A DNA stretch of 64,000 nt from Bacillota bacterium. Lineage in GTDB: Bacteria; Bacillota; Sulfobacillia; JACIYH01. Below, in pieces: positions 8,011 to 37,614 of this stretch. How positions within the stretch are numbered: position 1 is the first letter of the stretch; each line of letters opens with the position of its first letter. The notes beneath the pieces are model-generated. The model was not told where the DNA came from, did no database searches, and saw only the letters and a program-made list of their open reading frames with translations. The stretch is taken from the NCBI GenBank assembly GCA_040757085.1, contig JBFLXJ010000027.1:1-64000 (forward strand), read 5' to 3'. Both the position numbers and the translations under genes were made by a program.

Positions 8011-9416
8011 CTCACATCCCTCCCGTCGGGATCGAACAATCCCGGTGGGAGTTCCACCCCGCTGGCGCTCAGCCGGTCCCAGAACCGGGGCACCATACCG
8101 GTGGGCCGGTGAACCGCCTGCAGCTTCCCATCAGGGCCCACTCCGGTTATGTCCAGCCGGAATATGTCCTGGAGTACGATCACATCCCCTTCCATCCCCT
8201 GCACCTCTGTCACGTGGGTGATCCGGCGGGTACCGTCTTTGAGGCGCGCCTGGTGGATGATCAGATCCAGGGCTGCCGCTATCTGCTCCCGCACCGCCCG
8301 CAAGGGCAGGTCCATCCCGGCCATGAGCACCATGGTCTCCAGTCGCGAGAGCAGGTCCCGGGGCGAATTGGCGTGTACGGTGGTCATGGAGCCGTCGTGA
8401 CCGGTATTCATGGCCTGGAGCATGTCCAGCGCCTCCCCGGTGCGGACCTCCCCCACTACGATGCGGTCCGGCCTCATGCGCAGGGCATTGCGCACCAGTT
8501 GCCGGATGGTGATCTCCCCCGCACCTTCCAGGTTGGGCGGCCGCGCCTCCAGCGAGACCACATGCTCCTGCTGCAGCTTCAACTCGGCCGCGTCCTCGAT
8601 GGTGATGATGCGTTCGTGCCGGGGGATGAAGGATGAAAGGACGTTGAGCGTGGTGGTTTTTCCGCTCCCGGTCCCCCCGGACACCACGATGTTCAGGCGT
8701 GCCAGGACCGCCGCGCGCAGGAACTGACATATGCGATCGTCCATGGTGGCCAACCGCACCAGATCGGACGCGGTCAAAGGTTCCCGGCTGAACTTGCGTA
8801 TGGTCAGGGTGGGGCCGGTTACGGCCACCGGCGGTATGATGGCGTTGACCCGGGACCCATCCGGCAGGCGGGCATCCACCATGGGGGAAGCCTCATCAAT
8901 GCGCCGACCCAGGGGAGCCACGATGCGCTCGATGAGGTCCAGCACTTCCTTCGGTCCGGAGAAACGGACGGAAGTAGGCTCGATGCGCCCGTTCCTTTCG
9001 ATGTACACCTGGTGCGGCCCGTTCACCATGACCTCCGTCACCGTAGGGTCATCGAGGAACGCCTGAATGGGCCCGTATCCTACTATACTGGCGGCGATCA
9101 CATCAGCGAGGCCGTCCTGCTCGAGGGGCGGCACCCCTTCTTCGCCCAGTACCTCCAGGATTACCTCTCGCACCTCCGGGCCAGGCGCGGCTTGCTCCTT
9201 GCGGGCCGCCAGGCGCTCCAGCAATCTGGCCTGGGCCTTGGCCCTGAGAGCGGCCACCGCCGCCTGCTGTTGTTCTCCCGCCGGGGGTGGGGCACAACGT
9301 TGCTTGGGGGCCTCCTGCTCGCTTCCCTGACCTGGCTGGAACGAGGCCCCGCGAGGAATGTATTTCTGGACCGGCGAGGGATCGCCCCTCTCGACCACAC
9401 GGCGATAAAGGCTCAT
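8007..9416 (-). CDS. tadA: Tad/Flp pilus assembly ATPase (TadA/CpaF), copy 2
   Basis: A 469-residue secretion ATPase of the TadA/CpaF family with canonical motifs: [19 protein letters not shown], Walker [24 protein letters not shown] and [20 protein letters not shown]. The ATG at 9416 overlaps the TadZ stop in an ATGA junction; a longer in-frame start exists 27 bases upstream but would run into the upstream gene. It is complete and sits in the intact operon just before tadB and tadC, so it is the likely working motor of the pilus. Confidence 0.93.
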
Positions 9417-10777: not shown

Positions 10778-12118
10778 TCACGGGCCAACCCACAACAAAA
10801 CCAGCATCTCGCTGTTGCCCCGGATGACCTGCTCGGAACGGAGGACTGCCGGTAGAGCGAGACGCGAGAACCCCTCAGGAGCCGTCAGACACTGAGGGCC
10901 GAGAAGGCCGTACACGATCAGGCAATTCCCGGCGCCCAGCGAAATGTTGGCGGTCAGGCGCTCCGCGCCGGGCCGGACTTCCTCGATCGGGTAGGCCACA
11001 CCGGACCCGTCGCCGGCTACCTCAGCCCTTTCCTTGGGGATATCCAGGTATCGCAACTGGGCTACGCCGGTTAGACTCCGGCTCCGGTTGTCAGCGCCTG
11101 CCACCAGCACCTCAAGCGAAAAACCGTAGTTGAGCCATGACAGGCTCCCGCGGCCCGTAACCGGCACACTGGACTCCAGCTCCCATCGCACCGGGGCACC
11201 GGACCCGCCCACCAGATCGCGCCGGGCAACCACACGAGCCTTCCCCGTACTTACAAGAGAATCCAGTGCACGGAGGAAAGCTGCGTCTCTCTCGCCCATC
11301 CCCGGCGGCCATCGCGGCCCCAGCCCGAGAGTGGTAAGGAGGGGCGACGGCACCTCGAACACAGCCGCCGTCCCGCGGAAGGGGGGCCCGGCGGAAGGCC
11401 GGAGCCGGGCAGTCCCACCTGCAGCAAAGGAGGATGTGGTGAGCTCGATCTCGCCTCGGGTCCACTCCCCTGCCACCGGGCGCAGGGCCAGGCGGATGCG
11501 CCCGGTCTCTTCCGCCAGGGTGAGAGCGATGGCCTGCTCCGGCGTGACTGCCAGGGTCACCGAACGCAGCTCCCCGGCGTCTCTGCCCCCGGCAGCCACC
11601 TCGGTCGCCTTGCCCACTGCCAGGACCTGCACATCTTCCAGAAGCAGGCGAGTCTTTTCCGCCCCGGCCACCTCCTGCGAGAATGTGGCGATGACGTCGA
11701 CCCGGTCACCCGGCTGGAGCAACCCCGCAACCGCCTTCACTTCGTCGGCGGCCACCGTCACCGCCCGGTACCCGGGAGGGACGTGCGTGCCCAGGCCGGC
11801 CCCGCCACCCGGAAGCACCAGCTTGCTCCGGAACACCAGTTCACCCGGCACCAAGGGAACCCGGGTCACCTTCCCCACCACCTGGCTCAGGTCGCTCATT
11901 GTCTCCGGTCCGGTGAGAGCGGGGGGTACTGCCTTCAAGACCAGGTCGGACGCCGCCAGGGTGGTCCCCGCCGCCACCGCCCGGGCTGCTGCGACCACCT
12001 GGACCTCTTCCGGAGGCTCCGGGGCCACCCTTTGTACCAGGGCGTATGTCCCCGACACGGCAACCAGCCCCACAAGTACGGGAAGCAGAACGAGCTTCAG
12101 TACCTGCCTGCGCGTCAT
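10778..12118 (-). CDS. cpaB: Flp pilus assembly protein CpaB/RcpC
   Basis: A 446-residue protein with one N-terminal membrane anchor (VLKLVLLPVLVGLVAVSGTYALV), a SAF domain (ARAVAAGTTLAASDLVLKAVP and VGKVTRVPLVPGELVF), then the RcpC core (PPGYRAVTVAADEVKAVAGLLQPGDRVDVIATF). The C-terminal 200 residues have no domain I recognise and are longer than in the family's shorter members. The ATG start is preceded by GGGGGGTCGGGC. It lies 12 bases upstream of tadZ in the intact operon. Confidence 0.88.
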   Translation of the reverse strand: MTRRQVLKLVLLPVLVGLVAVSGTYALVQRVAPEPPEEVQVVAAARAVAAGTTLAASDLVLKAVPPALTGPETMSDLSQVVGKVTRVPLVPGELVFRSKLVLPGGGAGLGTHVPPGYRAVTVAADEVKAVAGLLQPGDRVDVIATFSQEVAGAEKTRLLLEDVQVLAVGKATEVAAGGRDAGELRSVTLAVTPEQAIALTLAEETGRIRLALRPVAGEWTRGEIELTTSSFAAGGTARLRPSAGPPFRGTAAVFEVPSPLLTTLGLGPRWPPGMGERDAAFLRALDSLVSTGKARVVARRDLVGGSGAPVRWELESSVPVTGRGSLSWLNYGFSLEVLVAGADNRSRSLTGVAQLRYLDIPKERAEVAGDGSGVAYPIEEVRPGAERLTANISLGAGNCLIVYGLLGPQCLTAPEGFSRLALPAVLRSEQVIRGNSEMLVLLWVGP

Positions 12119-12136
12119 GCCCGACCCCCCACAACC

Positions 12137-13075
12137 TCAGCGGATCAGCCTAACCCCCAGGGCGTGCCACGGACGTGCCCGGTCCCAATCCCCCAGATCC
12201 CCCGCGGTAGCCCGGCGTACGAAGCGCCCGATGACGCACGAGTCCGATCCCGTCCCGGAGCAGTCCTCAAGGTAAAACCAGGCGAAGCCTACCACGGGGA
12301 CGTCGTCCCTACCCTGCACGCCCGAGAAATCCACCACGGGTACCAGAAGCAGGCGCGGAGACTCCGGAGCAAAATTTTCGAATGTTTCTCCGGGACGTGC
12401 CCTGGCCAGACGGGCCTGAATGGCCCGGCGGGTCGGGCCGGACATGTCGCCCGGCTCCGTCCGGAGCCGGTCACCGACGCGAACTACCTGGTCCCAGCCT
12501 TGGGCCAGTCTTTTTTCGTAGTTGTATGCCCCCTGCCCGCCCAGAGCCAGGGCATGGAAATTCCCGCGCTCCCCTTCACCCCCGGCCAGTTTCAGCGCGT
12601 ACCTTTCCCCCACCGTAAAATCCCCATCGCCCACCCCCAGGGGCACGATCCCCCGCGTCCCGGCCAGGGGTGCCACTGCAGCCTCCGCCCAGGTAGCAAC
12701 AGGCAGGTGAGCCACACCCCATATCCCCGCGAAGGTGGTGCCGGGGTCTGTGGCGGCACTGACCCGGACCACGCTCGGCGGTTCGCCCGGTGCGGCCACC
12801 TGGCCGCGTACCTCCCTGGCGGTCATGACTTCCACCTGCACCTGGTCCGGGGTGAGCCCGTGGCGGCAAGCGTACTCCAGCGCCACCTGCTGGGCTCTTT
12901 CGGGGTTATCGGGAAGTTCCACCACACCGGCCAGGGCCGCCGCGTCGACTGCGTCCTGCAACTCCATGCGGGCCAGATAACCCCGCCCCGCATCCAGGGC
13001 CAGCGCAGCCACCCCCATGAGGCTGGCGCCCACCAACGCGACCATGACCAGCACATATCCCCGCTCCCCGTGCAC
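12137..13075 (-). CDS. TadG-like pilus-associated protein
   Basis: 312 residues. The N-terminus RGYVLVMVALVGASLMGVAALALDAGR is the membrane segment of the TadG/TadE N-terminal domain, followed by YLARMELQDAVDAAALAG, the typical start of putative Flp-pilus-assembly TadG proteins. The remainder is an extracytoplasmic domain with a clear Cys pair near the end (LEDCSGTGSDSC), which could form a disulphide. The GTG start lies after a weak GAGGGCGGTGA site. Located between tadE and cpaB. Confidence 0.82.
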   Translation of the reverse strand: MHGERGYVLVMVALVGASLMGVAALALDAGRGYLARMELQDAVDAAALAGVVELPDNPERAQQVALEYACRHGLTPDQVQVEVMTAREVRGQVAAPGEPPSVVRVSAATDPGTTFAGIWGVAHLPVATWAEAAVAPLAGTRGIVPLGVGDGDFTVGERYALKLAGGEGERGNFHALALGGQGAYNYEKRLAQGWDQVVRVGDRLRTEPGDMSGPTRRAIQARLARARPGETFENFAPESPRLLLVPVVDFSGVQGRDDVPVVGFAWFYLEDCSGTGSDSCVIGRFVRRATAGDLGDWDRARPWHALGVRLIR

Positions 13076-29917: not shown

Positions 29918-31768
29918 TCACCGGCCCGAACAGGAATCTCCCCGCACACCAGGACGACTCCTTTCGTAGATCTCCGGCAGGTACCGTTCGTACAGGGCCA
30001 GGTTGAAAGCCCGGTGCACACCCTCCTCCTGGCGCAGCCGCCGCAGGGCCTCCAGGTCCAGGTCTGCCACTATCACGGCCTCCTCGTCATAGCGTTCCGC
30101 CTGGGCCAGCACACCGTCACCGTGAGGAGTAAGTTCCATGGGCGCAAAGATCCCGCTGCGCCCGGTGAGGGTAAGACCCATGAAACTGCCCACCATACAG
30201 GCGTGGATGCCGTACACCTGCGACTCCTGCACCCGGGGCCAGATACCCCTCAGGGCCTTCCAGACGTTGTACTCCTCTGGATTGGCGCTGGGGATCACGA
30301 CCACCTCGGCGCCGCGCTGGGCGAGGATGCGGAACGTCTCGAAGTAGGTGGCGTCCATGCATACCGGGGCGGCAAAGCGGCCCCAGGGGGCGTCGAACAC
30401 TGCCAGGTCGTCGCCGGTCTCCAGTCCCCACGCCACCTCCATGGGTATGAAGTGGCACTTCTGCTGCTCACCCAGTTTCTGCCCGTCGGGGCCGTAAACG
30501 TGGGCCACGTTGACCATGCGACCGCGGGCATCGGGCAGAATGGCGCTGCCGGCCACCACGTACATGCCGAACCGGCGGGCCGCCTCCGAGAAGCTCGCCT
30601 CGTGCACCTGTTGCACGGCGGGCGCGATGGCGCGGAATATGTCGGCCACCCTGGCATCGGGGCCCACCCGCCTGACCGCCTGGAGCAGGTCGCCGCCTGC
30701 GGTCAGTTCATGGATCCCCGGCATGAGGCCGAGCAGGGCGGTGGCTACATCCTCGGGAAAGGCCACCATCCGGGCACCCTGTTCCGCTGCCCGCCCGGCA
30801 AAGCTGAGGATCCTTTGGGCATATTCCTCTGGCGAGCCCACCAGTTCTAGCCGCATCTGCACCGCCGCCACCCGTACCCGGGCGGTTGCTTCACCCTCCG
30901 CCTCCTCGCGGGCGTGCGCATCGCCGGGCCCTGCCGTGTAAGCGCCCGGGAAGGACCGGTATACGGTGGGGAAGTAGCGACAGTACAGGCGGGGATTGAG
31001 GAGTCCGAGGACGGGGTAGCGTTCGATTACCTGCTCCCGTGCCGCGAAATCCAGCCGGGCGAGAACGAGACCTGCCCCATCAGGGGCGTCGTTCAAAATG
31101 CCGGTCTCGCCGGGGGTCATCTCGCAGGGGGCAAAGATGGCACTGCGGCCTTCAAACTCGACCTTTTCCCCTGTCGCCGGGCTGCGCAGGTGGCCGTGCA
31201 GGCAGCTTTCCACGCCGAAGGTCTGGTTCTGCTGCACTTCCTGCCAGATCCCGGCGATCTGCCGCCAGGAGGTGTAAGGACGGCGCACCGCCTGCAGCGA
31301 GAGCAGGATCTCCGCGCCCTGTAAGGCGAGGATGCGGCTTACCTCCGGGTACCAGGCGTCGGTGCCCACCAGCATCCCCAGACGGCCGACCTCGGTCCGA
31401 AAAGTGAGCAGGTCACCCCCTGCCACCAGGCCCCGTTCCCTCTCCTCGGGCAGCAGGTGGGTCTGCCACTGCCTGCCGATGAGCTTCCCGTCGGGGCCGA
31501 TGAGCAGGCCCGCATTCCCTTCCCCGGGTAAGCCCAGGGCCAGGTACACCCCTGCGTCCCGGGCCAGATCTCCCGCCGTCAGGGCAAGTGCCTCCGCCAT
31601 CCGAGGCCGGCTCCGGTCTACCAGGTCTGCCAGATGCGGTAGCACCACCAGGCTCGCGCCTGCCCCGGCCGCCCGCCGCACCGAATCGTCCAGCAAGCTG
31701 ACCAGATCTGCGGTGCTCTCGCAACACCGGGGCTCAAGCTGCACGGCACACGCTACGACCTCCAACAT
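29918..31768 (-). CDS. Tandem nitrilase-superfamily protein with an inactive first domain
   Basis: 616 residues with two carbon-nitrogen hydrolase domains (about 3-275 and 297-600). The second has a full triad: Glu339 (VAFPEDV), Lys437 (EQQKCHFIP) and Cys470 (PVCMDATYFE). Aligned by eye, the first has His45 (VVLPHLAD), Gln102 (RQWQTHLLP) and Gly135 (LVGTDAWYPE), so all three catalytic residues are gone. Both halves end with a similar LY..Y.P..Y..F/R pattern. The substrate is unknown; the family hydrolyses amides or nitriles. ATG 31768 follows GCAGGAGGTG. Upstream of thiC but outside its riboswitch. Confidence 0.85.
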   Translation of the reverse strand: MLEVVACAVQLEPRCCESTADLVSLLDDSVRRAAGAGASLVVLPHLADLVDRSRPRMAEALALTAGDLARDAGVYLALGLPGEGNAGLLIGPDGKLIGRQWQTHLLPEERERGLVAGGDLLTFRTEVGRLGMLVGTDAWYPEVSRILALQGAEILLSLQAVRRPYTSWRQIAGIWQEVQQNQTFGVESCLHGHLRSPATGEKVEFEGRSAIFAPCEMTPGETGILNDAPDGAGLVLARLDFAAREQVIERYPVLGLLNPRLYCRYFPTVYRSFPGAYTAGPGDAHAREEAEGEATARVRVAAVQMRLELVGSPEEYAQRILSFAGRAAEQGARMVAFPEDVATALLGLMPGIHELTAGGDLLQAVRRVGPDARVADIFRAIAPAVQQVHEASFSEAARRFGMYVVAGSAILPDARGRMVNVAHVYGPDGQKLGEQQKCHFIPMEVAWGLETGDDLAVFDAPWGRFAAPVCMDATYFETFRILAQRGAEVVVIPSANPEEYNVWKALRGIWPRVQESQVYGIHACMVGSFMGLTLTGRSGIFAPMELTPHGDGVLAQAERYDEEAVIVADLDLEALRRLRQEEGVHRAFNLALYERYLPEIYERSRPGVRGDSCSGR

Positions 31769-31871
31769 CCACACCTCCTGCGGAGCAATCCAGCATCGGG
31801 CGCCCCTCGCGCATCAGTCCTTCCGTGGCTACGCGACCCGAGTTCTCGCCACCGCCCCCAGGTCCAGGCCG

Positions 31872-32084
31872 CTAACTGAGGTATTCTTTGAGGGTCTGGC
31901 GGAGCCCTTCCAGGGATTGCTTCAGGGTGCCATCCCTCACCGCCTGTCCGGCCGCCCGCGACACTTGCCTCTTGACGGGCAACCAGGGGTTGGCAACAAT
32001 ATAACCGGCGGCTACACTGGCCAGACCAGTTGATCCTTCTGGTCTAACCTTACAAGCAAGCGCACGAAATGGGGTAGCAAACAC
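31872..32084 (-). CDS. Possible small single-pass membrane protein
   Basis: An open frame with a hydrophobic start (GLASVAAGYIVANPWLPV) and a basic-amphipathic end (RQVSRAAGQAVRDGTLKQSLEGLRQTLKEYLS), plausible as a small membrane protein. The start is unclear: GTG 32084 or a later non-ATG codon after AGAAGG. It would lie over the FadR-type promoter region on the other strand. Apart from this frame and the dyad at 32023-32045 I see nothing in 31769-32085. Confidence 0.3.
   Translation of the reverse strand: MFATPFRALACKVRPEGSTGLASVAAGYIVANPWLPVKRQVSRAAGQAVRDGTLKQSLEGLRQTLKEYLS
32023..32045 (+). promoter_or_regulatory. Inverted repeat, candidate FadR-type operator
   Basis: AGACCAG (32023-32029) and CTGGTCT (32039-32045) form a perfect 7-bp dyad with a 9-base spacer, 41 bases before the regulator's start. 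It contains TGGTCTAACC-like half sites of the kind bound by GntR/FadR proteins. Autoregulation is an inference. Confidence 0.5.
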
Positions 32085-32085
32085 T

Positions 32086-32841
32086 GTGGCACGTGAGCAA
32101 GGGAGCGGCAAACGGACGTCCGATCAAGTCGAAGAGCACATCATCAGAGCCATCCTGGACGGTACCTTTCCACCAGGCTCTGCCCTTCCTGGAGAGCGGG
32201 ACCTGGCCAGGCAGTTCGGAGTCGCTCGTCCCACCCTGCGCGAGGCCTTGCAAAGATTGGCCCGTGATGGCTGGATCACCATCCGCCACGGGCAACCCGC
32301 CAGCGTCAACTACTTCTGGCGGGAGGGGAACCTCAATGTGCTGGACAGGCTGGTCCAGCATGCGGAGCACCTCTCGCCCGATTTCATCACCCAGTTGCTC
32401 GAGGTCCGTGCAGCACTCGCTCCTGCCTTCAGCCGGGCAGCCGTCGCACGCCACCCCGCCAAAGTGGTGGCCGCACTCGCAGGAAGCGAGGATCTGGATG
32501 ACGATCCTGCCGCCTACGCAGCGTTCGACTGGGAACTCCAGCGCACCCTGGCCCTGCTCTCGGATAACCCCGTCTTCCTTCTCATGCTGAACGGATGCAG
32601 CACACTGTACGCACGGGCGGCGCACCAGTACTTTGCCCGCGCGGAGAACCGGACTGCGTCGCGGAACTTCTACCACCGTCTCCTCAACGCCGCCATGGCG
32701 TGCGACCCCGACAGAGCAGCCACCGCAGTCAGCGAGGCCATGCTCGAAAGCATCACCCTCTGGCAGGCAACCGTGAGAACGCAGCCGCCGGAAGCAAGCA
32801 GAATCACCGGCCTTCAGGCAGAGGGAGGCGGGCATCCGTGA
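32086..32841 (+). CDS. FadR-type GntR-family regulator with acyl-CoA-type C domain
   Basis: 251 residues. The N-terminal winged helix reads IIRAILDGTFPPGSALPGERDLARQFGVARPTLREALQRLARDGWITIRHGQPASVNYFWREGNLNVLD. It follows enterobacterial FadR closely (RDGW.TI.HG.P..VN.FW...LN.L), and the rest fits the FadR C-terminal domain (HYFA-like HQYFARAENR; NFYHRLL). That domain binds long-chain acyl-CoA in gamma-proteobacteria. The GTG start has a weak GGGGT site. Its stop overlaps the next gene as GTGA: first gene of the FadR - flavoprotein - GlpD - kinase operon. Confidence 0.85.
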   Translation: MAREQGSGKRTSDQVEEHIIRAILDGTFPPGSALPGERDLARQFGVARPTLREALQRLARDGWITIRHGQPASVNYFWREGNLNVLDRLVQHAEHLSPDFITQLLEVRAALAPAFSRAAVARHPAKVVAALAGSEDLDDDPAAYAAFDWELQRTLALLSDNPVFLLMLNGCSTLYARAAHQYFARAENRTASRNFYHRLLNAAMACDPDRAATAVSEAMLESITLWQATVRTQPPEASRITGLQAEGGGHP

Positions 32842-34427
32842 GAAGGTGGAATGGGTGGGGAGACGATACCGTCGATTACCCGGTGCCCCCGGCAGCACGC
32901 CGCTTCCTGGAGACAAGGCTGGGCCCGGGCCTCAGACCCCGGGACGTCACCCTGGCTGAGGTGGCATCCCGGGTGCCTCCTTCTCGTCTTCCGCCCCACC
33001 CCCTGGTAACCAGCGACCCCGAGCAAAGGGTGCGTCACGCCCTGGGCCAGAGCCTCCCCGACTGGATAGCCGCCCGCAGCGGAACGATCCCCGCTTTCCC
33101 CGACGGGGTCGCGTTCCCTACCACCAGCGGAGAGGTACGGGAGCTCATCAGGCACGCCCAGGAAGCTGGCGCAAGAGTAATCCCCTACGGGGGTGGGACC
33201 AGCGTGCTGGGACACCTCCGGGTCCCCCCAGACGGCGCTCCCACCCTGTCCGTCGACATGGGGCGCATGAGCCACCTGGTCAACCTGGACGAACTAAGTG
33301 GCCTGGCCACCTTCGAGGCGGGAGTCAGGGGCCCGGACCTGGAGGCGTCCCTGCGAACCCGCGGCTTCACCCTGGGACACTTCCCCCAGTCCTTCGAGTA
33401 CTCCACGCTGGGCGGCTGGGTCGCCACCCGCTCGGCGGGCCAGCAGTCACTGGGTTACGGCCGGATCGAGGACCTCTTCGCCGGGGGGAGGCTGGAAGCC
33501 CCCACGGGGACGCTGATCATCCCGCCATTCCCTGCCTCCGCAGCCGGACCCGACTTGCGGGAAGTAATCCTGGGTTCAGAGGGCAGGCTGGGCATTATCA
33601 CCGAAGTGACGGTGCGAGTCAGCCGCCTTCCCGAAGAAGAAGCTTTCCACGCCGTGTTCTTTCCCGACCTGGAGCACGGGATTGCAGCGGTGCGGGAGAT
33701 GGTGCAATCCTGCCTGCCGCTCTCCATGCTGCGTCTGAGCACGCCCGAAGAGACCGCAACCAACCTGATCCTGGCGGGCCGGGAGAAACTGATGCGGCTC
33801 CTGGAAAGATGGCTCGCGCTGCGGGGGGCAGGGCGACAGAAATGCATGCTGATCGTGGGCCTGTCGGGCCGAAGGGCGCAGGTGAAACATACCCGTCGCC
33901 AGGCCCTGAGCATCGCCCGGGACCACCGCGGTATCCACATCGGCCGCAGATTCGGTCACGAATGGGTCAAACACCGGTTCCGCACCCCTTACCTGCGCAA
34001 TACCCTCTGGGAGATAGGCTACGCCGCGGACACGCTGGAGACGGCCACCACCTGGACCGGCCTACCCCGTCTGCTGGAAGCCATCGAACGAGCACTCCGC
34101 CACGGGCTTGACGGTACGGGCGAAAGGACACACGTGTTTACCCACATCTCTCATGTCTACCCCCACGGTGCCAACATCTACACTACCTACCTCTACCGCC
34201 TGTCCCCCGACCCCCAGGAGTCACTGGAGCGGTGGCGGATTCTGAAGACGGCCGCCAGCCGGGCCATTGTGGCCGCTGGCGGCACCATCAGCCACCAGCA
34301 CGGGGTGGGGATTGATCACCGGCCGTACCTGGAAGCAGAGAAGGGACCCCTGGGGATGGAACTCCTCCGCGCCATCTGTCGTACCCTTGATCCCGGCGGG
34401 ATGATGAACCCGGGCAAGCTGGTGTGA
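32838..34427 (+). CDS. Alkyl-DHAP-synthase-like FAD-binding oxidase (AGPS family)
   Basis: 529 residues. The N-terminus RRWNGWGDDTVDYPVPPAARRFL is the signature of alkylglycerone-phosphate synthases. The FAD_binding_4 domain has PYGGGTSVLGHL, STLGGWVATRSAGQQSLGYGRIEDL and EGRLGIITEVTVRV. The C-terminal part has HISHVYPHGANIYTTYLYR and AGGTISHQHGVGIDH, matching the AGPS active-site region. AGPS exchanges the acyl chain of acyl-DHAP for a fatty alcohol, the first step of ether-lipid synthesis; bacterial homologues may do other chemistry. GTG 32838 overlaps the FadR stop and has GGGAGG upstream. Confidence 0.8.
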   Translation: MRRWNGWGDDTVDYPVPPAARRFLETRLGPGLRPRDVTLAEVASRVPPSRLPPHPLVTSDPEQRVRHALGQSLPDWIAARSGTIPAFPDGVAFPTTSGEVRELIRHAQEAGARVIPYGGGTSVLGHLRVPPDGAPTLSVDMGRMSHLVNLDELSGLATFEAGVRGPDLEASLRTRGFTLGHFPQSFEYSTLGGWVATRSAGQQSLGYGRIEDLFAGGRLEAPTGTLIIPPFPASAAGPDLREVILGSEGRLGIITEVTVRVSRLPEEEAFHAVFFPDLEHGIAAVREMVQSCLPLSMLRLSTPEETATNLILAGREKLMRLLERWLALRGAGRQKCMLIVGLSGRRAQVKHTRRQALSIARDHRGIHIGRRFGHEWVKHRFRTPYLRNTLWEIGYAADTLETATTWTGLPRLLEAIERALRHGLDGTGERTHVFTHISHVYPHGANIYTTYLYRLSPDPQESLERWRILKTAASRAIVAAGGTISHQHGVGIDHRPYLEAEKGPLGMELLRAICRTLDPGGMMNPGKLV

Positions 34428-34450
34428 GAACACGATAGGGGGTGGTACCC

Positions 34451-36061
34451 GTGCAGGGCGACCGCGCCCAACGCTGGGATCTCCTTGCTCAACCGTGGGA
34501 CATGGTGGTCATCGGAGGTGGGATAACGGGGGCCGGCATCCTGCGGGAAGCCACCCGCCGGGGTTATCGCACCCTGCTGCTGGAGCAACGCGACTTCGCC
34601 TGGGGAACCTCCAGCCGTTCCGGCAAGCTCGTCCACGGCGGCCTGCGTTACCTCAAGCAGGGCCAGATCAGGGTCACCTGGCACTCCGTCCGGGAGCGGG
34701 AGAGGCTGCTCCGGGACGCACCCGGGCTGGTAATCCCCCTCGGTATCCTGCTGCCTGTGTATCGAGGTGACCCGGTGGGTGTCACGCTCCTGCGAATTGG
34801 CCTCATCATATACGACCTCATTGCCATGCGTCGCGGCCACCGCTACCACGCCCGACCCGCCTTCGAGAAGCTGGCCCCGCACGCGCGCACCGAAGGCCTG
34901 CTGGGGGGCTTCTCGTACGGGGACGCCCTGACCGACGATGCCCGGCTGGTGCTGCGGGTATTAAGGGAGGCAATGAGGAACGGGGCCACGGCGCTGAACT
35001 ATGCCCGGGTTGAGGAGTTTCGTCGCTGCAGCCGCGGTCCCGTAGAAGGGGTCGTCGTCCGGGACGTGGTAACCGGACGAACTGCGGAGGTGCGGGCAAG
35101 GGTGGTCGTCAACGCCGCCGGCATCTGGGCGGATGAGTTGCGGTGCCGCCTGGGAAAGAGGCCCCGCCTCCGCCTGCTGCGCGGGAGCCATCTCATCTTT
35201 CCCGCCTCGCGCCTCCCCGTCACCCGGGGCATAAACGTGTTCCATCCTGGCGACGGCCGCCCCCTATACGTCCTGCCCTGGGAGGGGGTCACGCTGGTGG
35301 GTACTACCGACGTGGACCACGCAGAAGACCTGGAAGCAGAGCCCTGCATCAGCTCCGCCGAGGCAGAGTACCTGCTGACAGCCGTCCGGCACCATTTCCC
35401 CTCCCTGGACCTGTCCGAGGACGACGTGCTGGCCACCTTCTCCGGGGTACGCCCGGTGGTGGGAACAGGGGAAAAGGACCCCTCCAGAGAATCCCGAGAT
35501 TACGTGGTCTGGGTGGAGGAGCTGGTGACCGTGGCCGGCGGCAAGCTGACAACGTTCCAGGTGCTGGCCCGTGACGCGGTGCGCAGGGCGCAAAAACGTC
35601 TGGGTCCCGGCCGCAAGGGCGGTGTGACTGTCGTCCAAAGGCCCGTCACGGTTGACCTCGCTGCGACCTCCGACCTCCCCGAAATGGACCATGCCATCTG
35701 GCTCCGCCTCGTGGGTCGTTACGGGCCGGACGCCCTGGCACTGGTCCGGGGGGCGCGCCCGGAAGAACTCCACCCCGTTCCGGGGACGAATACTCTGTGG
35801 GCGGAACTGCGCTGGGCCGCTTCCTCCGAAGACGTCGTGCACCTGGACGACCTGCTCCTGCGACGCGTGCGCCTGGGAATTCAGCTTCCCCAGGGTGGAA
35901 TTCCCCTGCTGGGGCGCATCCGGCCCCTCGTCCAGCCCGCCCTGGGCTGGGACGACGCCCGGTGGCAATGGGAAGTCAAGCGGTATGCAGAACTGTGGCA
36001 GTCGGCATACAGCCCCTCCCCCGCCGCAGGGAGCAGGAGAGAGTCATGGGCAGAGAAATGA
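34451..36061 (+). CDS. glpD: Glycerol-3-phosphate dehydrogenase/oxidase GlpD
   Basis: About 536 residues. The FAD site is [51 protein letters not shown]; further family motifs are [25 protein letters not shown] and GVRPVVG, then the DAO C-terminal domain ([13 protein letters not shown]). It oxidises sn-glycerol 3-phosphate to DHAP at the membrane. GTG 34451 has a GGGGGTGG site; GTG 34442 is the longer choice. It supplies the DHAP that an alkyl-DHAP synthase branch would need. Confidence 0.92.
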
Positions 36062-37614
36062 TCCTAGCCATCGATGTAGGGACGCAGAGCGTCCGCGCCC
36101 TGATTTTCGACCCGCGTGGGAACCTCGTGCTGCAAGCGCGGGTCCCCCTGGTTCCCCCGTATTACTCGCCATACCCGGGGTGGGCAGAGCAGGATCCCAC
36201 TCAGTATTGGGAAAAAACTGCCCAGGCCTGTCAGACTCTGTGGGATCAGGGCAAAATCCCACCCCAGGCCCTGGCGGCGGTCACGCTGACCACGCAGAGG
36301 GCCACCGTGGTCAACCTGGATGCCAGTGGGCAACCCCTCCGCCCGGCCATCCTCTGGCCGGACCAGCGCCGGGCGCAGCGATTCCCCCGGGTGGGAGGCC
36401 GCTGGGGCTTGCTCTTCCGTCTGGCGGGCCTCCGGGACACGCTGACCTACCTGCAGGCCGAGGCCGAGGCCAACTGGCTGTGGGCCAATCAGCCCGACGT
36501 CTGGGAGCGGACTGCCCACTACCTGCTCCTCTCCGGCTACCTGACTTACCGGCTGACGGGGCGCTTCGTCGACTCCGTAGGATGCCAGGTGGGCTACATC
36601 CCCTTCGACTACCGCCGGCTGACCTGGGCGGCCCCTTCCGACTGGAAATGGCAGGCCCTCCCTGTGCGCAGGGACACCCTCCCCCAACTGGTACCCCCGG
36701 GGGAGAAGCTGGGAGAGGTGACGGCAGAGGCTGCCGCGATGACCGGCATCCCCGAGGGACTGCCCGTGATCGCCGCTGCGTCCGATAAGGCGTGCGAGGT
36801 GCTGGGAGCCGGATGCCTGGAGCCTTCCATGGGGTGCATCGGATACGGTACCACGGCCACGGTGAGCGTCACCTCCCCCCGCTATCTTGAGCCTATCCGG
36901 CTCATCCCGCCCTATCCCAGCGCCATCCCGGGGGCATACAACCTGGAGTTCCAGGTTTTCCGTGGTTTCTGGATGGTGTCGTGGTTCAAGGAGGAGTTCG
37001 CCTGGCCGGAGAAATCCGCCGCCGAACGCGAAGGTTTGCCCACCGAAGCAGTCCTGGACCGCCTGGCCGAGGGAATCCCTCCCGGGTCCCTGGGCCTGGT
37101 GCTGGAACCGTACTGGTCTCCTGGACTGCGGTTCCCCGGACCCGAGGCCCGGGGGGCAGTAATAGGCTTCAGCAGCTTTCACGGCCGCGCCCACCTGTAC
37201 CGGGCCCTCCTGGAAGGACTGGCATATGCCATGAGAGAAGGGAAGGAGCGTATCGAACGGCGGACGGGGGTGCCCGTCAGGGAACTGCGGGTATGCGGGG
37301 GAGGGTCGAACAGCGACCTGGCGATGCACATCACCGCTGACGTCTTCAACCTCCCCGCTTCCCGCCCCCACGTGCCGGAGGCCTCCGGCCTGGGAGCCGC
37401 AGTCCTGGCCGCCACCGGCGCAGGGCTACACCCCGACCTCGCTACTTCCGTGCGGGAGATGACCCGCACCGGGCGCGTCTTCGAGCCCCGGCGCGAGGCT
37501 GCGGCCGTGTACGACGTCCTGTACAGCCAGGTCTACCGGCACATGTACCCCAGGCTCCGTCCCTTCTACCAGGTCATCCGCAAGCTGTTCGCGCCCGCTC
37601 TCCCTACGGTGTAG
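36046..37614 (+). CDS. FGGY-family carbohydrate kinase, probably glycerol or polyol kinase
   Basis: 522 residues. N-terminal ATPase fold [20 protein letters not shown], substrate region [29 protein letters not shown], a putative catalytic Asp in [14 protein letters not shown], phosphate motif [11 protein letters not shown] and adenosine motif [27 protein letters not shown]. The specificity cannot be read; the GlpD neighbour makes glycerol or a related triol likely. ATG 36046 has a GGAGAGAG site and overlaps glpD by 16 bases. Last gene of the operon. Confidence 0.85.

Follow-up and report, generated by a model that had tools for sequence, protein, structure and literature searches.

We analyzed a 64,000-nucleotide stretch of DNA (the window; contig JBFLXJ010000027.1) from the 2.67-Mb, 98% complete genome of a Bacillota bacterium (G000), and examined an operon that encodes a FadR-type regulator, a flavoprotein related to alkylglycerone-phosphate synthase (AGPS), a GlpD-like dehydrogenase and an FGGY-family kinase. 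We lean, with modest confidence, towards the view that this operon is a self-contained catabolic unit for glycerol ether lipids, in which a single substrate would pass through three enzymes in turn and the products would supply the signal to which the regulator responds. The kinase would phosphorylate the free sn-3 hydroxyl of a 1-O-alkylglycerol to give alkyl-glycerol-3-phosphate (alkyl-G3P), and the GlpD-like enzyme would oxidize the sn-2 hydroxyl of this intermediate to a ketone, yielding 1-O-alkyl-dihydroxyacetone phosphate (alkyl-DHAP) and passing electrons to quinone. AGPS follows a ping-pong mechanism in which a base abstracts a proton at C1, a flavin N5 adduct forms, the C1 substituent leaves and an alcohol attacks (PMC3509576). 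With the second half-reaction run backwards, the AGPS-like enzyme would cleave alkyl-DHAP: the fatty alcohol would be expelled after abstraction of the C1 proton and formation of the flavin N5 adduct, and water (or a fatty acid) would then attack the adduct to release DHAP (or acyl-DHAP). The fatty alcohol would be oxidized to acyl-CoA, which would displace FadR from an operator overlapping the promoter of the operon.

The four genes are tightly packed on the plus strand, as the original prediction had described. The fadR gene (32086-32841, GTG start, 251 amino acids) encodes a GntR/FadR-type regulator with a FadR_C domain and shares a 4-base GTGA overlap with the gene for the AGPS-like FAD enzyme of the SHQHGVG subtype, the proposed ether-splitting enzyme (32838-34427, GTG start, 529 amino acids). 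After a gap of 23 bases follows the gene for a GlpD-like FAD-dependent glycerol-3-phosphate dehydrogenase, the proposed alkyl-G3P dehydrogenase (34451-36061, with a possible alternative start at 34442), which overlaps by 16 bases the gene for an FGGY kinase of a distinct subfamily, the proposed 1-O-alkylglycerol kinase (36046-37614).

The flavoprotein, the dehydrogenase and the kinase

The flavoprotein carries WNGWG at residues 4-8 and SHQHGVG at residues 485-491, the motifs by which it had been linked to AGPS. Its top match among solved structures is Dictyostelium AGPS (2uuu, E 2.6e-75), followed by guinea-pig AGPS (E 5.7e-58) and then by D-lactate dehydrogenase (3e-29). We built a tree of 51 rows by a quick method with SH-aLRT support; the flavoproteins of the module (the window operon and its relatives) form a single clade (support 100), and a branch of 2.6 substitutions (support 100) sets them, together with AGPS, apart from the GlcD/D-lactate dehydrogenase (D-LDH) types of G000. 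For an AF2 model of the flavoprotein (pLDDT 88) the 37 top-ranking PDB matches are all AGPS chains, with 2uuu, 4bby and 5ae1 nearest and TMq values of 0.80-0.91 for nearly all AGPS chains; matches to LDHD rank after them (TMq about 0.70). The equivalents of guinea-pig R419, R515, Y578, H615 and H617 are invariant in 87/87 module flavoproteins. In the window protein R299, R387 and Y448 occupy the catalytic Arg, Arg and Tyr positions (87/87), which correspond in Dictyostelium AGPS to R352, R447 and Y508, residues that mutagenesis has shown to be needed in catalysis (PMC3509576). The triple histidine of SHHHGVG is not retained: the equivalent of guinea-pig H616 is Gln in 83 of the 87. The middle His is kept in the other four, and at least one of their loci (L029) has the full enzyme set, so the Gln/His difference appears to track operon type imperfectly.

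The original prediction had allowed for a hydroxyacid oxidation role, and an operon for 2-hydroxyacid or glycerol oxidation with a GlcD/D-lactate-type flavoprotein would agree with the Pfam domains, which are the same in both groups, and with a weak match to TIGR00387 (glcD; 117 bits vs a cut-off of 568). We give this explanation next to no weight, since it is contradicted by the tree, the fold and the active-site motif: the GlcD-type paralogues of G000 carry SGEHGIG, which is absent from the flavoprotein, and are placed on the opposite side of the tree. An oxidase identity was rejected on these grounds; judged by tree, modeled fold and catalytic residues, the flavoprotein belongs with AGPS and not with the D-2-hydroxyacid oxidases.

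The dehydrogenase keeps the substrate- and flavin-site residues of GlpD (HGGLRY, R317, K354) and falls under the NCBIfam GlpD cut-off (PRK12266, 298.6 vs 360). We consider it on this basis a putative GlpD-like enzyme, distinct from standard GlpD.

The FGGY kinase scores far under the curated cut-offs for GlpK, XylB and LsrK (for GlpK, TIGR01311, 167 bits vs 590), and its AF2 model is equally near LsrK, GlpK and XylB. We take the glycerol contacts of E. coli GlpK to be R83, E84, W103, Y135, D245, Q246 and F270. Among 55 module kinases R83, W103 and D245 are kept, and three positions are replaced: E84 by A/S/G (55/55), Q246 by Lys (54/55) and F270 by Thr (55/55). A separate canonical GlpK (751 bits) is encoded in G000. 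In Streptomyces fungicidicus and Tsukamurella tyrosinosolvens an AGPS-like gene (39-41% identity) occurs with GlpD and a DAGK_cat/YegS-type lipid kinase. The FGGY kinase is predicted not to be a glycerol kinase because three glycerol-contact residues are replaced, because G000 has its own GlpK, and because a DAGK-family enzyme replaces it in Actinobacteria. The same observations speak against the earlier suggestion that kinase and GlpD do no more than channel glycerol to DHAP, a role that the pocket residues and the separate GlpK led us to disfavor. Since a lipid kinase stands in for the FGGY kinase in Actinobacteria, its position argues by analogy that the kinase substrate is a lipid. The layout of AGPS-like, GlpD and DAGK genes is presumably also that of Rv2249c-Rv2252 in Mycobacterium tuberculosis. 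Rv2252 is a reported diacylglycerol kinase (PMC3229680).

FadR and its operator

The regulator scores over the curated cut-off of NF003444 (212.3 bits vs 189) and under that of the narrower TIGR02812 (205.7 vs 249.2), and aligns with E. coli FadR over the full length. The DNA-reading residues R35, R45, T47, R49 and G66 are invariant in 24/24 module FadRs. Of the ligand pocket, R105, Y179, Y193 and S219 are invariant in the same set, W223 is nearly so, G216 is Met and F149 is His or Gln. The model score, the alignment and the DNA-reading residues point to a close FadR homologue of the true FadR type, in line with the original prediction.

A predicted FadR operator, ACTGGCCAGACCAGT, lies at 32016-32030 with one mismatch to ACTGGTCNGACCAGT; neither the rest of the window nor the rest of the 2.67-Mb genome has another site with at most one mismatch. 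The window holds both the DNA-reading residues of FadR and a TGGTNNNACCA-type operator. A sigma-70-type promoter-like site (TTGGCA-17-TACACT, 31990-32018, plus strand) overlaps the operator with its second hexamer, which ends inside it; the region has four promoter-like sites vs 0.6 in shuffles. A possible second, weaker FadR-type site, TGGTCTAACCT (32040-32050), is suggested by its position 22 bases downstream of the first, TGGTCTAACCT-type sites being at chance level in the window (21 vs 21.2 expected).

We compared 25 fadR-bearing loci with upstream sequence, the window included, with 62 loci lacking fadR. An operator with at most three mismatches is present in 18/25 of the former and one with at most four in 23/25, mostly 35-80 bases from the aligned fadR start; among the latter none has fewer than four mismatches and 1/62 has four. 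In relatives a TTGACA-TATAAT-type promoter comes immediately before the operator. The repressor site likewise lies over the promoter where FadR represses E. coli fad promoters (PMC9329746). The best reading of the regulator is a local, autoregulated repressor that acyl-CoA would release. In a genome of the same genus (G001, L028) fadR matches in pieces at about 8588-8864 and looks decayed, the three enzyme genes are intact, and the operator is weaker (four mismatches).

The proposed sensing of acyl-CoA by FadR would also suit salvage of monoacylglycerol or lysophosphatidic acid, in which ester-linked acyl-glycerol is handled and the AGPS-like enzyme frees the fatty acid from acyl-DHAP, and AGPS normally does start at acyl-DHAP and release a fatty acid. 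Lipases, however, split esters with neither ATP nor a flavoenzyme, which would make AGPS chemistry superfluous, and we judge such salvage very improbable.

Conservation of the operon

A scan over the contigs of many genomes yielded 80 loci, at 51-68% identity and from many phyla. Many of them come from metagenome bins, which makes single taxon labels unsafe, and Oxalobacteraceae make up a disproportionate share. The AGPS-like, GlpD and FGGY genes are kept together in Bacillota, Chloroflexota, Pseudomonadota, Acidobacteriota and others, with GlpD directly downstream of the AGPS-like gene in 75/77 testable loci. The FGGY kinase follows in 48/66 loci by our script rule, or in 50/66 when two missed overlapping copies (L090, L113) are counted. 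Chance does not account for gene order and identity: in many phyla the three enzyme genes follow one another in this succession, at 45-79% identity. Neither outcome that the original prediction had named as refuting it was seen, as the flavoprotein does not group with 2-hydroxyacid oxidases and the gene order is kept in relatives. The data support the predicted co-conserved operon and fatty-acid-responsive ether-lipid module; the module is not confined to Bacillota, and the data favor degradation rather than synthesis.

The fadR gene is directly upstream in 22/75 loci and occurs in Chloroflexota (14/26), Acidobacteriota (3/3), Thermodesulfobacteriota (2/2) and Bacillota. It is found in 0/29 loci of Oxalobacteraceae, where an AraC-type regulator with an Arabinose_bd domain is present instead in 26/29.

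Outside the core genes we looked for conserved neighbors across the module loci and found none; a Pfam scan of 20 neighboring genes gave mostly unrelated genes. Individual loci provide hints only. In L031 an Fe-containing alcohol dehydrogenase, a candidate fatty-alcohol dehydrogenase, is encoded 40 bases 3' of agps-glpD (11179-12381, plus strand). In L106, an Anaerolineales contig, a bacterial TMEM164-family gene (194 bits; 12209-12940, plus strand) comes after the FGGY kinase; TMEM164 of animals is an acyltransferase for ether phospholipids. Three loci of the same class (L034, L036, L039) combine more distant AGPS-like genes with genes for a cysteine-rich (CCG) protein resembling GlpC and for a GlpD-like protein, an arrangement reminiscent of a GlpABC-type version of the module; the same CCG cluster occurs in L042, which groups with the D-LDH types. 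In the window a 618-amino-acid protein with two CN_hydrolase (nitrilase-type) matches is encoded on the minus strand at 29918-31774, and a 718-amino-acid relative lies near the module in G001 (L028:3439-5592).

Direction of the pathway and comparison with known systems

Bacterial AGPS homologues have been interpreted as ether-lipid synthesis genes (PMC11868695, PMC11948995), among them homologues from metagenomes (PMC11868695). For the module, synthesis would mean that kinase and GlpD give DHAP from glycerol, that an unlinked acyltransferase makes acyl-DHAP, and that the flavoprotein forms alkyl-DHAP as animal AGPS does. The AGPS catalytic residues, all kept except the middle His, agree with this, and in Ca. 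Promineifilum breve an AGPS gene and a fatty acyl-CoA reductase (FAR) gene are nine genes apart (PMC11948995), a proximity that could mean synthesis. Against it, the kinase has a pocket unlike that of GlpK and is replaced by a DAGK-type enzyme in Actinobacteria, a quinone-linked GlpD works oxidatively, FadR is usually a repressor of degradation genes, and kinase plus GlpD would merely yield DHAP, which glycolysis already supplies. No acyltransferase, FAR or alkyl-DHAP reductase is linked to the operon, unlike at two other bacterial loci. In Streptomyces sp. NBC_01450 (L129), the one locus at which we examined the neighborhood of a eukaryote-type bacterial AGPS, the gene groups with the eukaryotic enzymes in the tree and is preceded by a short-chain dehydrogenase/reductase (SDR) and a PF01553 acyltransferase; MXAN_1676 of Myxococcus xanthus shares its cluster with genes for a FAR/GNPAT-like protein and for an NAD-dependent epimerase/dehydratase (PMC9131029). 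The partners at these loci are those expected for synthesis, whereas in the module a kinase and an oxidative dehydrogenase take their place. In seven module genomes a search for FAR with PF07993 gave only weak matches, none convincing, with a model so unspecific that it matches all 14 control genomes. We regard synthesis as unlikely, and favor catabolism because the kinase is probably not GlpK, a DAGK-family enzyme can replace it, and the partners at the eukaryote-type locus are instead an acyltransferase and a reductase.

The same logic of kinase, dehydrogenase and ether- or acetal-splitting enzyme could serve to break down a different O-substituted glycerol (glycosylglycerol, an aryl glycerol ether or polyglycerol). 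FGGY kinases mostly take polar substrates, a Roseibium locus combines a distant AGPS/LDH-like gene with an FGGY kinase and a Ugp-type transporter, and some AGPS-like genes lie on plasmids of dioxane degraders. FadR and its conserved operator point rather to fatty acyl groups, it is a lipid kinase that replaces the FGGY enzyme in Actinobacteria, and the loci of the module clade show no linked sugar transporter; we hold a substrate of this kind to be quite unlikely. The Roseibium plasmid locus (L132), whose kinase is annotated as xylulokinase and which also encodes a glycerol dehydrogenase, is by gene content a sugar-type analogue of the module. The dioxane-degrader genes of Xanthobacter dioxanivorans (L127, next to glutathione S-transferase, glcF and two further FAD-linked oxidase genes) and Mycobacterium dioxanotrophicus (L130) are possibly other ether-splitting uses of the AGPS-like family. 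On a Rhodococcus plasmid (L126) an AGPS-like gene adjoins an FA_hydroxylase-family protein of the alkylglycerol monooxygenase (AGMO) superfamily, an SDR and an acyl-CoA dehydrogenase.

Several points weigh against ether-lipid catabolism, the proximity in Promineifilum among them. To our knowledge all characterised AGPS enzymes act in the synthetic direction, and the middle His of that family is changed in most module flavoproteins. Roughly one testable locus in four lacks an adjacent kinase, and two genomes with such loci (G028, G012) gave no second kinase copy; at such loci alkyl-G3P might come from phospholipid breakdown, or another kinase might act. The E. coli FadR ligand contact G216 is Met in all module copies. 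Genes for uptake, lipase or alcohol oxidation show no consistent linkage to the module loci. Acyl-CoA dehydrogenases occur in module genomes and also in 51/61 of the class; as this is non-discriminating, we dropped their presence as a pathway marker.

The broader proposal is that O2-independent ether-lipid degradation by phosphorylation, oxidation and retro-AGPS cleavage is widespread in bacteria, controlled by FadR and acyl-CoA, with an unrelated kinase taking over in Actinobacteria; we consider the balance on this even. Our search of the open-access literature turned up no account of a degradation operon made up of kinase, GlpD and AGPS, which is not proof of novelty; the protein families are known, and within that literature the combination and the proposed direction appear new. 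If true, AGPS chemistry would be used in reverse, and the route, present in many phyla including anaerobic lineages, would bear on the persistence of ether lipids in sediments. Surveys in which bacterial AGPS homologues serve as markers for the synthesis of ether lipids or plasmalogens (e.g. PMC11868695) might partly count degraders, and the operon partners (kinase and GlpD vs acyltransferase and reductase) offer a test of degrader vs synthesiser.

The proposed outcome, alkylglycerol breakdown, is that of AGMO, termed the sole known alkylglycerol-degrading enzyme (PMC7911779, PMC9192799). AGMO is a membrane oxygenase that depends on O2 and tetrahydrobiopterin, whereas the module route would need neither. 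With AGPS of Dictyostelium (2UUU) and guinea pig (4BBY) the module enzyme shares the fold, the clade, the WNGWG N-terminus, the catalytic Arg, Arg and Tyr and two of three histidines; it differs in having SHQHGVG for SHHHGVG in 83/87 members and in its operon partners, kinase and GlpD rather than acyltransferase, FAR and reductase. The MXAN_1676-1674 cluster (PMC9131029) and L129 resemble the module in placing a bacterial AGPS homologue in an operon-like cluster, unlike it in having a FAR/GNPAT-like or PlsC-type acyltransferase and an SDR without kinase, GlpD or FadR. GlpK-GlpD glycerol catabolism likewise pairs an FGGY kinase with an FAD-dependent G3P dehydrogenase; in the module the kinase pocket is altered, GlpK is encoded separately and an AGPS-like enzyme is added. 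The actinobacterial glpD/TetR/AGPS-like/DAGK cluster also sets an AGPS-like gene beside GlpD and a kinase, with a non-homologous DAGK-family enzyme and TetR in place of FGGY and FadR and a less similar AGPS-like protein. Finally, the E. coli FadR regulon shares with the module a FadR homologue, its operator and a site over -10/+1, whereas in Bacillota, Chloroflexota and Acidobacteriota the module FadR appears to be local and heads one operon with no fad genes attached.

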